Shown here one piece after another: positions 9-5,834 of a DNA stretch of 5,834 nt. Position 1 is the first letter of the stretch. Every line of letters starts with the position of its first letter. The stretch comes from Bacteroidota bacterium (GTDB lineage Bacteria; Bacteroidota; Bacteroidia; Chitinophagales; Chitinophagaceae). Made by a program: the position numbers and the translations under genes. The DNA is taken from NCBI GenBank assembly GCA_023436685.1, contig JAEZIL010000247.1, positions 1 to 5,834 on the forward strand, written 5' to 3'. Below the pieces are notes generated by a model. That model was not told where the DNA came from. It worked only from the letters and a program-made list of their open reading frames with translations, and did not search any database.

Positions 9-797
9 CTATAACAGTATTTCCTTTATAATGATATAGATACCCATTATCAGAACAAACCATCCAAATGCAGGTTTTAGTTTCTTGCCTTCAATCTTTG
101 CAGATAGAAAGCTTCCGATAAGTATACCAATAACGGCAATTGCAGCAATACTGAGTAAAAAAGACCATCGAATATGCTGGTTTCCCAAGGAGAAGAAAAA
201 ACCCATAAGAGAGTTGGCAGCTATAATAAGCAGGGACGTTCCGACAGCCTTTTTCATAGGTAGCTTCAACATGTTAACTAACGCGGGTATGACCAAGAAT
301 CCTCCACCGGCGCCGATAAGACCAGTGATGGCACCAACACCCAACCCTTGCAATAATACCCTTACAACTGAAAAATTTCTTTCAGAATTTTCTCTAGCAG
401 TATCTTGCTTTCTGATCATGCTAAATGATGCAAGTATCATCAGCAGTGCAAAAAGCAACATTAGCAGGATACCTTTGGTAAGGGTGAAACTCCCAATCTG
501 AAATAATCTATCCGGTATGGCCGGAACGATATAGGTACGGGTAAACGATACAGAAAAAATGGACGGAATACCGAAAAGAATTGCTGTTCTGGGACTGATA
601 AGGCGCTTTTTAAAATAAGCAACCGATCCTATAGCACTCGTACTGCCAACTACAAACAGTGAATACGTTGTAGCCAATACTGCATCCACACTGAACAGAT
701 ATACCAATACCGGGACGGTGAGAATGCTGCCGCCTCCGCCAATTAAACCTAATGAAATACCAATCAGCACAGATGCCAGATAACCTGCTATAACCAT
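9..797 (-). CDS. TauE/SafE-family inner-membrane anion/sulfite exporter
   Basis: This 262-residue, very hydrophobic protein has the architecture of the TauE/SafE (DUF81) transporter family, with about eight membrane segments in two homologous halves. Each half opens with the family's glycine-rich loop: GLIGGGGSILTVPVLV at residues 17-32 and GLIGAGGGFLVIPALV at 159-174. A short charged linker (about 129-143, RKQDTARENSER) divides the halves and is probably cytoplasmic. Length is normal for the family, and the protein runs from an ATG at 797 to a TAG at 9-11. Family members are inner-membrane carriers linked to export of sulfite, sulfoacetate or other organosulfur anions, but the substrate cannot be read from sequence. 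The gene lies 58 bp downstream of the Crp/Fnr gene on the same strand, with no convincing promoter between them, so co-transcription and control by that regulator are likely. No Shine-Dalgarno is visible. The family call is firm; sulfite as substrate is inference. Confidence 0.93.
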   Translation of the reverse strand: MVIAGYLASVLIGISLGLIGGGGSILTVPVLVYLFSVDAVLATTYSLFVVGSTSAIGSVAYFKKRLISPRTAILFGIPSIFSVSFTRTYIVPAIPDRLFQIGSFTLTKGILLMLLFALLMILASFSMIRKQDTARENSERNFSVVRVLLQGLGVGAITGLIGAGGGFLVIPALVNMLKLPMKKAVGTSLLIIAANSLMGFFFSLGNQHIRWSFLLSIAAIAVIGILIGSFLSAKIEGKKLKPAFGWFVLIMGIYIIIKEILL

Positions 798-855: not shown

Positions 856-1479
856 TTACACGATTGTTATTTTATTTCTGCCCAGTTGAACAAATCCAGA
901 TTCTTCCAGCTGCTTTAAGAGCCTGGAAACTACTACTCTCGCGGTTCCCAGTTCACCCGCCAGTTGTTCATGGGTTGTTAAGATAACTTTTGACTTTGCC
1001 AATTCCGCCTTCTTATTCAACAAATTGAACAATCTTTCATCAACTTTTTTAAATGCTATTGCATTTATTATTTCCAGAAGCTCCTCAAAGCGCTTATGGT
1101 ATAGACGGAAGATATAGTCCAGCCATTGTGGATATTCTTTGATGAACACGCTAACCTTGTCCATAGGTAGAAAAAGAATTTCAGCATCCTCTTCAACTTC
1201 AGCTTTTACTTTACTGGTTTCATTATGTAATCCCCCCAGAAAGGACATGATGCAACTTTCCCCAGCCTTTATATAATACAATAAAATCTCCCTTCCGTCC
1301 TCCTCGGTTCGCATTACTTTCAACGTTCCTTTCATGACTATGGGAATAGAACGTATATGTGTATTTTCATTTAGTATGATATCTCCTGTATGGTAACTCT
1401 TTTGAATGCCGTATGCATAAAGTTTCTCTATCAGTTCTGGTGAAGACTTAAATTCTGATATTTGATTTAATTGATTCAT
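856..1479 (-). CDS. Crp/Fnr-family transcriptional regulator
   Basis: This 207-residue protein has the two-domain layout of the CRP/FNR superfamily. Residues about 20-110 form the cyclic-nucleotide-binding-like beta barrel, with the usual YHTGDIILNEN and IVMKGTLKVMRTEEDGREILLYYIKAGES strands. Residues about 112-145 form the long dimerisation helix. Residues about 150-207 form a winged helix-turn-helix: TTHEQLAGELGTARVVVSRLLKQLEESGFV at 168-197 matches the CRP pattern, with a recognition helix of the form GTxRxxVSRLLKxLE. Only one cysteine is present (Cys76), so there is no four-cysteine FNR-type iron-sulfur ligand set. The signal could be a small ligand or thiol redox chemistry, and the sequence does not decide. 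The start is the ATG at 1479, just 4 nt beyond a TAGATTTG box, so the transcript may be nearly leaderless. The gene heads the probable unit with the downstream TauE/SafE exporter, whose expression is a plausible target. Confidence 0.93.
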   Translation of the reverse strand: MNQLNQISEFKSSPELIEKLYAYGIQKSYHTGDIILNENTHIRSIPIVMKGTLKVMRTEEDGREILLYYIKAGESCIMSFLGGLHNETSKVKAEVEEDAEILFLPMDKVSVFIKEYPQWLDYIFRLYHKRFEELLEIINAIAFKKVDERLFNLLNKKAELAKSKVILTTHEQLAGELGTARVVVSRLLKQLEESGFVQLGRNKITIV

Positions 1480-1483
1480 ATAA

Positions 1484-1491
1484 CAAATCTA
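1484..1491 (-). promoter_or_regulatory. Candidate Bacteroidota -7 promoter box of the Crp/Fnr gene
   Basis: On the minus strand this reads TAGATTTG, a full match to the Bacteroidota -7 consensus TAnnTTTG. It ends 4 nt before the Crp/Fnr ATG, which would place transcription initiation at or a base or two before the start codon and give a leaderless or nearly leaderless mRNA. No TTG or TTTG -33 box lies at the usual spacing of about 19 nt, so it may be weak or activator-dependent. Confidence 0.45.
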
Positions 1492-1496
1492 CTGTT

Positions 1497-1861
1497 TTGA
1501 ATTATTATGCTACGTCACCTAGTCATTTGCTGTAAAAGGAATTCTATTTTCTGATCCCAGCCAAACTTGCACTGATCTTTCCTATTTGTTTTTCGTTCCT
1601 AATAACGGTAACAGTAGCAACAGCGAATCAGTTGCTTACACAGTACCTTGGAAAATAATCTTGTCCTCACTTTTTCATTCTTATATACAGGCATTGATTC
1701 TCCTGTAAGGTAGATTTGTTCACGAAAAATCACTGCTCTGGATAATCATTTCATCAGCAGGTATCCTCACGTCTTCTATTATAAACTGTCACCATGACCT
1801 GCTCCTGCGTATTTATAATTGCATCCTGCCATTGCGAAATATTTTGCAAGCCCTATTTGTA
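1497..1861 (-). pseudogene. Decayed fragment of a P-type cation-transporting ATPase (actuator domain relic)
   Basis: No intact reading frame exists here, but successive short segments in shifting minus-strand frames line up, in order, with the actuator domain and flanks of a P-type ATPase. They are: YK-x-GLQNIS (1832-1861); RNGRMQ (1819-1836) then INTQEQVM (1793-1816), followed by GD (1788-1793); FIIEDVRIPADEMIIQSSDF (within 1723-1785), matching the GDxxxxxxxxxIPADGxxxxSxDxxV region; VNKSTL (1706-1723); LTGESMPVYKNE (1674-1709), the hallmark TGES-PV loop required for dephosphorylation; EDKIIFQGTV (1639-1668); FAVATVTVIRNEKQIGKIS and SLAGI (within about 1550-1630); and LLQQMTR (1518-1538). The QGT and QIGKIxxSL patterns resemble calcium-type (P2) pumps more than heavy-metal P1B pumps. 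Frameshifts and in-frame TGA, TAA and TAG codons separate the blocks. The DKTGT phosphorylation site, nucleotide-binding domain, start and C-terminal helices are absent, so only about 120 of roughly 800-900 residues remain. The fragment cannot encode a functional pump. Family assignment is strong; subfamily is tentative. Confidence 0.85.
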
Positions 1862-1884
1862 GAAGGGAAGCACAAATTCCATAA

Positions 1885-4329
1885 TCAAAATTCAAATATT
1901 ATACCTAGCGCAGGCGTTATATTTTGATCTACATTCTTAATTAATACAGGAACACCGTTAGAGCCATCCTGCTTTAAAGGAAGACCATCAGTAGTTACAA
2001 AACTATTGTCAGCATTGCGTTGAAAGCTGTAATAATCGCGATTTACATTTTTTGCAAATGTTGCGTTCTGGAAGTCCAGATACACATTGAGCGATGATCT
2101 TTTAAAATTTATCTTTTTGTCTATCCTGAGATCAAGTTGGTTGAAAAAAGGTAGCCTGTTCTGGTTCAGCCTTGCATAATCGCGAATACCCTGGCCTGTT
2201 GTTGTATAATTCAACCGTGATGCCGTCTCATCAAATGGCGTATAAGGAGTGCCACCCTGTAGCCGATATTTTGCACCAAACTCCCAACCCTTTCCGAGTT
2301 TCTTGCCGAAGATAAATGATAACAAGTGTCTTGTATCCCATGCAGAAGATATGTATCGTCTGTTAATACCTGTGAATTCACTCCAGAACAGTGTATAAGA
2401 TACCGTGACAAAAAAACTTTTTACCAATTTTTGCTGAGCAAATAGCTCAACCCCAAAACTTCTTCCGCTACCATCACTTATAACCCTTTCATTACCAATA
2501 GCTCCATAATCAGCGCCCAAATTAGCTAATGAAATTCCATTGGTTACCGATATAGGATAATTACTGTACTTTTTATAGAAACCCTCAGCAGTAATGCGAA
2601 GTGAATTATTGGGCAGGTATTCAATACCTCCACTTAAATGGTCACAAAGTATATATTCGTTGTCTTTATTCACAAGCATGCCTGCTTGGTTCTGGTAACC
2701 AAGCACAGTGTATACCGGCAGCTTAGCATATCTGCCCAATGTGCCGTTTATATTGAATCGGCTGTTTAAGCTGTAAGATGCAGTGAATCTTGGAGAAAAA
2801 GCATTAAGCTGATTATTACCATCTATTAAATAACTATTCATATCGGTACGCATGCCCAAGGTTAACGATAGCTTTTCATTCAGTACGCGTCGGCTAAGAG
2901 AACCATAAAGTCCATACTTAAAGAAATCGATATCTGTATCATAATTTATGGTTAAGGCGGGCTGAATCACGTATCCGTTCGAATCTCTGATTTGTTTTCG
3001 TGCTAAGGAAAACAAATCATTATTATACTTTACGTATTGCACAGATGCTCCATAATTAACTTTCCACTTCCCATATACCTTGTTCACTTCTAGTCTTAAT
3101 TTATTTTCTATTTCCTGTGACACAGATTTGAATGTACGTTTGGTCTCATTGCCGAAATCAGCATCTTCAAACTGGTCTAAACGGTTATTGAACATGTTTC
3201 TGCTAACAGTCAGATTAACATAACCTCTATTTACTAACCTTTTAAGTGAAAAGCCTACTGTATAATTCCATTGATTAATAGTGGGTAACGACCTGATGAT
3301 ATACTGTTTTTCAAGATCCGTTTTTTTAGGCACTGCGAAGGAGAACTCGTCAATTGCGCCCAAGCCAATAGCCGTGAGTGTTGTTTTTTCATTGATCTTG
3401 TGGGTTACCTTATATTGGAAATCCCAAAAGTTTGGCCGAATGGGCAGATCAATTAACTGAAAAAAATATTGCAGATAGGATCGTCTCGCGGAAGCAAGGA
3501 AAGTTGTTTTCTTCGAAATTGGGCCTTCCAAAGTTGCCGCTATCTCAGTACTGCTTAAACGCAAATTGCCTTGAAATTTTTCCGGGTTGCCATCTCTTTG
3601 TTTAAATTGTAAAACAGAAGATAACGCGTTATCATATTTAGCAGCGAAGCTGCTGGTACTCAGGGTCACGTCTTCAATGAACGAAACGTTTAATATACCT
3701 TGTGGCCCGCCTGAAGCTCCTTGTGTAGAGAAGTGGTTGATTTGGGGTACTTCTACGCCATCCAGGTAATAAACATTTTCGCTTGGCGCCCCACCACGTA
3801 TGATTAGGTCGTTCCTGGCGGCGCCACCGCTGGTACCGCCAACACCTGGCAACGCCTGTATGGCTCGCGATATATCATAATTTCCACCAGGATTACTTTT
3901 TATCTCTTCTGAAGTAAGGCTTTGTACGGATAGAGGTGTCTCCGTCTTTTTACCAAAACTGTTGTTTCGAATAACTACCTCATTCAGCGATGTTGTGCTT
4001 TTCTCAAGCTCTATATCCAGTACTGTCGCATTACCGTTGGATACAATAATATTAAAACGCTTTTCTTGATTGTAACCTATAAATTGCGCAACCAGATTAT
4101 AGGTTTTAGGTTGTATATCGGCCAACTTAAATTTCCCCGAAGAGTCTGTTTGAGTTCCAAGTTCCGTGCCCTCTAATGTAATAATAACCCCTTCTATCGC
4201 TTCTTGGGTTTCCTTATCCTTCACTGAACCAATCAATATACCATTAGCCTGAGCTAAAGCTCTTTGAGTAAAGAAAGCTGTCAATACTATTAAAAGCAGT
4301 ACCGCTCTGTACAGGTATAATTTATTCAT
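1885..4329 (-). CDS. TonB-dependent outer-membrane receptor with N-terminal carboxypeptidase-regulatory-like domain
   Basis: This complete 814-residue receptor has a signal peptide at residues 1-26 (hydrophobic LLLIVLTAFF core, likely cleavage after ALA). A carboxypeptidase-regulatory-like (CarboxypepD_reg) domain follows at about 32-110, with GSVKDKETQEAIEGVIITLEG and the DSSGKFKL turn. A TonB plug spans about 130-245, containing ISRAIQALPGVGG, DLIIRGGAPSENVYYLDGVEV and the NHFSTQGASGGPQGILN stretch. From about 250 onward comes the beta-barrel, with many alternating aromatic strands and a terminal strand ending in F (GIIFEF), the usual outer-membrane assembly signal. It would bring a substrate into the periplasm using TonB-ExbBD energy. 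It is shorter than SusC-type glycan receptors and no SusD gene adjoins it, so a metal chelate or other small substrate is possible, but the ligand is not recognisable. A well-formed promoter lies upstream. The ATG at 4329 is supported by the signal peptide directly after it. The gene ends about 23 bp before the ATPase relic. Confidence 0.97.
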   Translation of the reverse strand: MNKLYLYRAVLLLIVLTAFFTQRALAQANGILIGSVKDKETQEAIEGVIITLEGTELGTQTDSSGKFKLADIQPKTYNLVAQFIGYNQEKRFNIIVSNGNATVLDIELEKSTTSLNEVVIRNNSFGKKTETPLSVQSLTSEEIKSNPGGNYDISRAIQALPGVGGTSGGAARNDLIIRGGAPSENVYYLDGVEVPQINHFSTQGASGGPQGILNVSFIEDVTLSTSSFAAKYDNALSSVLQFKQRDGNPEKFQGNLRLSSTEIAATLEGPISKKTTFLASARRSYLQYFFQLIDLPIRPNFWDFQYKVTHKINEKTTLTAIGLGAIDEFSFAVPKKTDLEKQYIIRSLPTINQWNYTVGFSLKRLVNRGYVNLTVSRNMFNNRLDQFEDADFGNETKRTFKSVSQEIENKLRLEVNKVYGKWKVNYGASVQYVKYNNDLFSLARKQIRDSNGYVIQPALTINYDTDIDFFKYGLYGSLSRRVLNEKLSLTLGMRTDMNSYLIDGNNQLNAFSPRFTASYSLNSRFNINGTLGRYAKLPVYTVLGYQNQAGMLVNKDNEYILCDHLSGGIEYLPNNSLRITAEGFYKKYSNYPISVTNGISLANLGADYGAIGNERVISDGSGRSFGVELFAQQKLVKSFFVTVSYTLFWSEFTGINRRYISSAWDTRHLLSFIFGKKLGKGWEFGAKYRLQGGTPYTPFDETASRLNYTTTGQGIRDYARLNQNRLPFFNQLDLRIDKKINFKRSSLNVYLDFQNATFAKNVNRDYYSFQRNADNSFVTTDGLPLKQDGSNGVPVLIKNVDQNITPALGIIFEF

Positions 4330-4650: not shown

Positions 4651-4708
4651 GGATAAGTGCTTCTCAATCTTAAAACAGTAATTTTACGTGTATATATCCG
4701 AATATATT

Positions 4709-5413
4709 ATGGAGCTACAATTACAGATAAAGATGAATCCTGCGCTGTTTGTTCGTGATCCTGAGTCTTCTGAGTTAGGGAAAAACATTATACAGCATGG
4801 GATAATGATGATAAATGATATAGGATTTGAAGATTTTACATTTAAAAAGTTAGCCAATAATATAGGTACTACTGAGGCAAGTATCTACAGGTATTTTGAA
4901 AATAAGCACCGGCTGCTTACATACATCACTACATGGTTTTGGACATGGATGGAATACCAGCTTATATTTCATACAAACAACTTAAAGGATCCAAAAGAGA
5001 AAATAAATATTATAATAAACCTATTGACCTTCCAGGCAACAGACAAGTTTATACTAGAGCACATAAACAAAAATGTACTGCATAAGATCGTGATAGCTGA
5101 AGGAAACAAATCTTACCTGACCAAACATGTAACTGAAGATAATAAAGCAATGCTCTTCCAACCTTACAAAGATCTCTGCCATAGAATAGCTGAAGTGTTC
5201 CTGGAATATAAACCTGGTTTCCCTTTTCCACATTCTCTAGGTAGCACACTTATAGAAACAGCACATCACCAAATGTACTTTAAAGATCATTTACCAAGAC
5301 TTACTGACTTTGGTGGAGCAAAAGATGGAAAACTACTAGGAAGTTTTCTGCATCACCTTGTATTCAGCGCGCTAGATGGATTTACAAAACGAAAGATAAT
5401 TAGATCAAGATAA
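4709..5413 (+). CDS. TetR/AcrR-family transcriptional regulator
   Basis: Read from the ATG at 4709, the product has 234 residues. The N-terminal TetR DNA-binding domain covers about residues 23-70: ELGKNIIQHGIMMINDIGF, then the helix-turn-helix FTFKKLANNIGTTEASIYRYFENKHRLL, with the typical S-x-Y-R-Y-F-x-N-K recognition helix and following segment. The rest (about 71-234) is a mostly helical ligand-binding and dimerisation domain with tryptophan and aromatic residues (TWFWTWMEYQL) at its start; the ligand is unknown. The frame is open upstream to a GTG at 4688. The ATG is preferred because it places a conserved-looking MELQLQIKMNPALFVRDP leader at the front, and because the nearest promoter-like box would initiate downstream of the GTG. 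No Shine-Dalgarno is visible at either. It is divergent from the TonB receptor and convergent with the TolC gene, overlapping the latter's end by 9 bp. Repression of the receptor or of the neighbouring efflux genes is plausible, not shown. Confidence 0.92.
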   Translation: MELQLQIKMNPALFVRDPESSELGKNIIQHGIMMINDIGFEDFTFKKLANNIGTTEASIYRYFENKHRLLTYITTWFWTWMEYQLIFHTNNLKDPKEKINIIINLLTFQATDKFILEHINKNVLHKIVIAEGNKSYLTKHVTEDNKAMLFQPYKDLCHRIAEVFLEYKPGFPFPHSLGSTLIETAHHQMYFKDHLPRLTDFGGAKDGKLLGSFLHHLVFSALDGFTKRKIIRSR

Positions 5414-5834
5414 CCGGCCGGCTGCCCACATCAAAGCCGCATAGCTTTTGTGCCATTTGGTTCTTAATTCATATACCTTTTGTGTTGCTTCCAAAACTTT
5501 ATTCTCACGTGAATTAAGCAGGAATAGTGTACTCTCACCCGTCTCAAATCTTATTTTTTCTCCAAGAAACAGTTTCTGATAATTACCGAGCGCCTGCTCG
5601 TATATCATAATCTGCTGACTGAGCTGTAATACTTCATTATAATAACCTTTTACTTTGTTCTCTATCTGCAATGCAGCCTGGTCCTGCTCCAGCGCAATTT
5701 CCTGAAGCTTTATTCCAGCTGATCTATAGTTTCCACGAGCTTCTCTAAACAAAAGAGGAACACTCAAATCAACACCTAGCTTGTAGTTATTTTCAAGAAA
5801 TGCGACTGAAAAGTTATTTGGTGTAGTATAACCT
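5405..5834 (-). CDS. TolC-family outer-membrane efflux protein, C-terminal part (5' end outside window)
   Basis: The frame is open from the right edge (first whole codon ends at 5833) to a TGA at 5405-5407, giving the last 142 residues of a protein normally 400-500 long. An apparent start near 5767 is only a TTG leucine codon inside the gene, since the family-typical sequence continues upstream of it (NNYKLGVDLSVPLLFREARG). That segment is the beta-strand plus entry to the second OEP repeat, with the P-L-x-x-R-E-A-R-G signature of Bacteroidota TolC proteins. A long amphipathic helical hairpin follows (ALQIENKVKGYYNEVLQLSQ... then GEKIRFETGESTLFLLNSRE), with the F-x-x-G-E-S-x-x-x-x-L-N-x-R-E motif seen near the end of these channels. 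TolC proteins form the trimeric outer-membrane exit duct of RND, MFS or ABC efflux systems. The partner pump genes would lie beyond the window. Confidence 0.93.
   Translation of the reverse strand, partial: GYTTPNNFSVAFLENNYKLGVDLSVPLLFREARGNYRSAGIKLQEIALEQDQAALQIENKVKGYYNEVLQLSQQIMIYEQALGNYQKLFLGEKIRFETGESTLFLLNSRENKVLEATQKVYELRTKWHKSYAALMWAAGRLS

Follow-up and report, generated by a model that had tools for sequence, protein, structure and literature searches.

Does the apparently empty spacer between two intact genes of a Bacteroidota bacterium hold the remains of a third, and if so, to which of its neighbours did that gene belong? An earlier note, made from the sequence alone, had claimed that conserved blocks of a P-type ATPase can be read there on the minus strand. 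We followed up this claim in the window, i.e. the whole stretch of DNA that was analysed (5,834 bp), which appears to be one whole contig. The spacer lies between a receptor gene and a Crp gene, spans 405 bp (1480-1884), is AT-rich (GC about 0.35) and, as the note had stated, contains no meaningful open reading frame: none of at least 50 amino acids overlaps it. The window otherwise encodes an intact TauE/SafE family permease (12..797, minus strand; PF01925), an intact Crp/Fnr-family regulator (859..1479, minus strand; PF00027 and PF13545), an intact TonB-dependent receptor (1888..4329, minus strand, with its stop codon at 1885-1887; PF07715 and PF13715) and, identified by Pfam, a TetR-family regulator (4688-5413, plus strand) and a partial outer-membrane efflux protein (5405-5833, minus strand). 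Rfam gave no match, and nothing was found when the whole window was searched against plasmids. When the three stop-masked frames of the 405-base gap were searched against Pfam, no ATPase family was found; single-frame profile searches are thus blind to the ATPase relic described below.

Intact ATPases were aligned with the minus strand of 1480-1884 by a frameshift-aware protein-to-DNA alignment (own script). The ATPase at locus L148 scored 231, while 500 dinucleotide shuffles of the gap gave a mean of 48.8 (sd 6.6) and a maximum of 77; the L124 ATPase scored 199 against a mean of 48.7 and a maximum of 72 in 200 shuffles, and when the best of 14 proteins was taken for each of 40 shuffles the maximum was 75. 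Genomic controls, scored on both strands, behaved similarly. Regions of 405 bases upstream of 11 Crp orthologues scored 42-66 and those downstream of the receptor in 28 of 64 receptor loci scored 41-85, where the top value (L014) reflects hydrophobic, AT-rich sequence matching the C-terminus of the ATPase. Tiling the window with 82 overlapping 405-base tiles (41 positions on both strands) gave 231, 173 and 166 for tiles in the gap and at most 81 elsewhere. A tblastn search with P-type ATPases from other genomes likewise recovered ordered segments in the gap (best E 3.9e-7). Finally, with the gap as a DNA query against 36 genomes, short matches were found in 7 (E 2.6e-8 to 0.0058), of which 5 (G042, G050, G053, G054 and G056) fall on an intact ATPase of the same family and the remaining two are 23 bases (G049) and 21 bases (G025) long.

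Aligned with L148, the relic spans 356 bases, from 1882 down to 1527, with 10 frameshifts, 1 stop and 60 of 113 residues identical, and corresponds to positions 103-224 of the L148 open frame, which are about residues 93-214 when numbering starts at the start codon (in L124, residues 93-211). Its secure part is 1527..1848 (minus strand), where frameshift-tolerant alignments to L148, L153, L144 and others, together with tblastn, follow the series CKIFRNG, GD, IPAD, TGES, FQGT and IGKISASLAGI. The blocks therefore stand in three frames and in the right order, collinear with the intact ATPases, as had been claimed; the TGES loop of the actuator domain is kept and is collinear with the GD and IPAD blocks. 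GD is not the first of them, since the relic begins earlier, with CKIFRNG at 1848, which pairs with CKVIRNG of the intact gene. Just before this block, weak similarity (1849..1882, minus strand) possibly extends the relic upstream to two bases from the receptor stop codon; it is present in the L148 and L144 alignments and absent from those of L153 and L146. The other edge varies with the homologue, mostly between 1537 and 1514, with L146 and L212 among the few showing a ragged match beyond. A possible downstream extension at 1514..1526 (minus strand) holds the LLQQMTR block, which the earlier note had counted in; some alignments reach it (L153 to 1521, L089 to 1514) but most stop before. The remaining stretch up to the Crp start codon (1480..1513, minus strand) carries no secure ATPase similarity in the frameshift-tolerant alignments. 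The limits first given for the relic, 1497-1861, are accordingly replaced by a secure core of about 1527-1848, with weak similarity to 1882 and possibly to about 1514.

Both gene ends are missing, again in agreement with the initial reading. The first ~92 and last ~615 codons of the ATPase are absent from the window by tblastn and tiling, and intact genes stand in their place. The DKTGT phosphorylation site and the ATP-binding domain are absent as well, the relic ending near residue 214 with no other credible match in the window. Lacking this site, this domain and most membrane segments, the relic is predicted to make no pump and, more generally, no product. The relic keeps 32 of the 46 positions that are invariant in 14 intact members. 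Of the 14 that have changed, 4 fall in the weak upstream extension, and leaving this extension out gives 10 changes in 42. Identity at codon positions 1, 2 and 3 is 0.63, 0.74 and 0.36 between the relic and intact genes (mean of 14) versus 0.79, 0.88 and 0.43 among intact genes, so that the extra divergence of the relic is greater at the first two positions than at the third and is not concentrated at silent positions; both this pattern and the invariant-site counts depend on the alignment, which favours matching residues. With this caveat, they fit decay without constraint. A search for repeats around the junction returned a direct pair of 14 bases and an inverted pair of 11 bases. Neither pair brackets the relic, and both were treated as chance.

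To which ATPases is the relic related? Scored against 41 ATPase sequences, some of which are one gene fetched twice, the relic gave 180-231 with 14 distinct members of one family, 166 (L156) and 157 (L093) with the nearest sequences outside these members and 47-124 with other P-type ATPases. ATPases from a class-wide search scored 166-213 at 24 loci (L200 repeating L090), 164 at L220 and 160 at L226. Judged by these scores, the matches converge on one P-type ATPase family. A tree of its 112 readable residues puts the relic near the outgroups, at the end of a long branch, and gives it no secure place within the family. Three further family members carry one in-frame stop each (G077:C1:372232-374373, G083:C9:163142-165610 and G395:C52:200837-203323) and may possibly be further decaying copies. 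By eye, the family ATPase at L089-L091 lies near genes resembling BON-domain, Hsp20 or Dps proteins.

The comparison with related genomes that the earlier note had proposed revealed an intact ATPase at the matching place in two of them. In G053 (L124) 16 bp separate the end of the ATPase open reading frame from a Crp gene on the same strand, which shares 70% identity with that of the window, and in G055 (L161) the ATPase frame ends at 2441 with Crp starting at 2453, also on the same strand and 11 bp apart. In G130 (L220) the two genes are divergent with about 110 bp between their start codons, and in G424 (L226) a family ATPase lies 2.4 kb upstream of Crp with two open reading frames between. 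A same-strand intact ATPase directly upstream of Crp was thus found in 2 of 43 genomes, these being the fetched Crp loci checked for 1 kb upstream (261 bp only in G028). No further relics were detected upstream of Crp in this set, where an intact ATPase lies within 1 kb in G053, G055 and G130; the other 1-kb strips score up to 125, so that weaker relics could be missed. Searching 395 genomes of the class returned a Crp match in 51 (E 1e-70) and an ATPase match in 74 (E 1e-200). Of these 51, G053 and G130 are the only ones with the family ATPase next to Crp, and G424 has it 2.4 kb off; most genomes with both genes carry the ATPase elsewhere. The Crp genes closest to that of the window (77-83% identical) have no same-strand ATPase upstream: none lies within 1 kb in G135, G422, G077, G186 and G277, and the ATPase of G130, whose Crp is also among the closest, is divergent. 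Because the most similar Crp genes lack a same-strand ATPase, the ancestral order of ATPase and Crp is one that we infer and do not observe. Separately, G041 has a different P-type ATPase (about 30% identical; L170, 7185-9575) upstream of its Crp orthologue, the two being separated by one open reading frame.

The receptor side tells a different story. Among 64 receptor loci, many of them short, none matched the window's Crp or ATPase at E 1e-5 and an open reading frame motif scan found no P-type ATPase; a TauE match was present in 5 of the 64, 5-8 kb away. Conversely, the receptor was not matched in the Crp loci searched (sets of 14 and 12), and, of the loci examined, this window alone has a TonB-dependent receptor in that position. 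With the ATPase beside Crp in relatives and the receptor loci devoid of Crp and ATPase, the relic belongs with Crp and the receptor is a local, foreign neighbour. Similarly, none of the 64 receptor loci matched the TetR-family regulator or the efflux protein (4688-5833) at E 1e-5, so this side is likewise a local arrangement. Composition shows no sharp break at the junction of receptor and relic. The proposal that this transport locus once included or received a cation pump can therefore be retained for the Crp side, where we infer it from relatives, but the relic does not go with the TonB-dependent receptor.

On the Crp side, Crp is followed by TauE/SafE in 5 of 12 close-relative loci (L220, L221, L222, L223 and L224). 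By Pfam, genes neighbouring Crp encode a metallo-beta-lactamase plus rhodanese protein, a rhodanese and an OsmC protein in L221, a sulphur-transport protein in L220 and a thioredoxin in L161. From this gene content, Crp likely leads a sulfide/persulfide gene cluster; a literature search for this combination found none. Within the spacer, TAGATTTG at 1484-1491 (minus strand) begins 12 bp before the Crp start and matches TAnnTTTG, which we take to be the consensus of the Bacteroidota -7 box. A box of this type is found at the same distance from Crp in 2 of 13 other loci (L169 and L170). Promoter and terminator scans gave no excess, and TANNTTTG occurs 8 times in the window against an expectation of 7.5, which is no excess either. 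That the eroded spacer now gives Crp its own promoter, replacing read-through from the pump gene and freeing the regulator of sulfur genes from pump control, is a speculative idea that we consider improbable.

Taken together, these observations make us highly confident that 1480-1884 holds, on the minus strand, a frameshifted internal remnant (about 356 bp) of a P-type ATPase gene of about 832 residues, likely cut by rearrangement or deletion and likely decayed without function. An ancestor would have carried an intact ATPase upstream of this Crp gene. The rearrangement that brought the TonB receptor beside the ATPase would have removed its first ~92 codons, and a deletion would have taken the last ~615, up to about 35-55 bp before Crp. 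The remaining piece would have gathered frameshifts, in this or another order of events.

Several other explanations deserve consideration. The spacer is AT-rich and one AT-rich control reached 85, as might be expected if the similarity were a chance or low-complexity resemblance, but 231 stands far from the shuffle maximum of 77 (n = 500), and the order of the blocks and the specificity for one family speak against it as well. A chance origin of the ATPase blocks, already called implausible before any search, is excluded, the probability left to it being vanishingly small. Sequencing or assembly errors in a truly intact gene would be easier to entertain given that the assembly is short and the window apparently a whole contig. 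Such errors would have to place ten frameshifts in 356 bp and yet leave about 3.8 kb of open reading frame unbroken in the three nearest flanking genes, so that sequence error of a general kind is no explanation for the frameshifts; such errors would also leave unexplained the 14 of 46 changed invariant residues and the missing codons at both ends, where intact genes are in place. We regard this explanation as very improbable.

The contig could instead be a chimera joined near 1884, in which case the receptor never adjoined the relic. Receptor and Crp are indeed not neighbours in any locus examined in relatives, yet the lack of a sharp composition break at the junction argues against a join, which strikes us as improbable, and the relic beside Crp stands even if the contig is chimeric. 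Harder to dismiss, if still unlikely, is the arrival of the relic as a small fragment, by recombination or failed transfer, that was never a working gene beside Crp. It would account for the survival of a middle piece only, for the rarity of same-strand adjacency (2 of 43 genomes), for the nearest Crp orthologues having no same-strand ATPase and for the absence of the receptor from the Crp neighbourhoods of relatives. A random landing would, on the other hand, rarely hit the very place where two genomes have a member of the same family directly before Crp and with the same orientation, and where a third has one divergently. Loss of a resident ATPase gene by truncation and erosion thus remains our preferred reading.

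The relic illustrates how a gene that is heavily eroded and escapes open reading frame listing can be recovered by close reading of a seemingly empty spacer, and how the genomic context of homologues can assign such a relic to one side of a junction. It also draws attention to the repeated occurrence of a P-type ATPase near a Crp-family regulator, the latter having relatives beside TauE, rhodanese and OsmC genes.

How does the relic compare with known systems? The frameshift-tolerant translated search gave a collinear match to the region before the DKTGT site of one family, and against the intact proteins of that family the relic keeps TGES within its aligned residues and has lost both ends, DKTGT and a single frame. 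The intact L124 ATPase (832 amino acids) contains the Pfam domains Cation_ATPase_N, E1-E2_ATPase, Hydrolase, Cation_ATPase and Cation_ATPase_C. Its best NCBIfam model is TIGR01522, the PMR1-type calcium ATPase, at 449.2 bits, below the cut-off of 798.3, and the solved structure nearest to it by sequence is the Listeria pump lmo0841 (6zhf, 9euq), titled calcium-transporting ATPase lmo0841 in the PDB and presumably the pump named LMCA1. The family differs from that pump in carrying PEEIP (24 sequences checked and six others; L124, L144-L154, L195-L218) where the aligned Listeria protein has PEALS. Given the score below cut-off and this difference, calcium as the ion is not established for the intact family. 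A literature search on P-type ATPase pseudogenes in Bacteroidetes intergenic spacers surfaced only a phytoplasma genome review. The passages of the Pseudofinder paper that deal with intergenic remnants (PMC9336565) describe how BLASTX of spacers finds remnants without a predicted open reading frame, 238 in a Shewanella genome and 305 in a Sodalis genome. Set beside those passages, our relic is the same, a coding remnant in a spacer without open reading frames found by translated similarity, with no difference in kind; what accompanies it is a homologue that is still intact and stands in matching context in two other genomes. In summary, the relic is an ordinary intergenic pseudogene remnant of a known kind.
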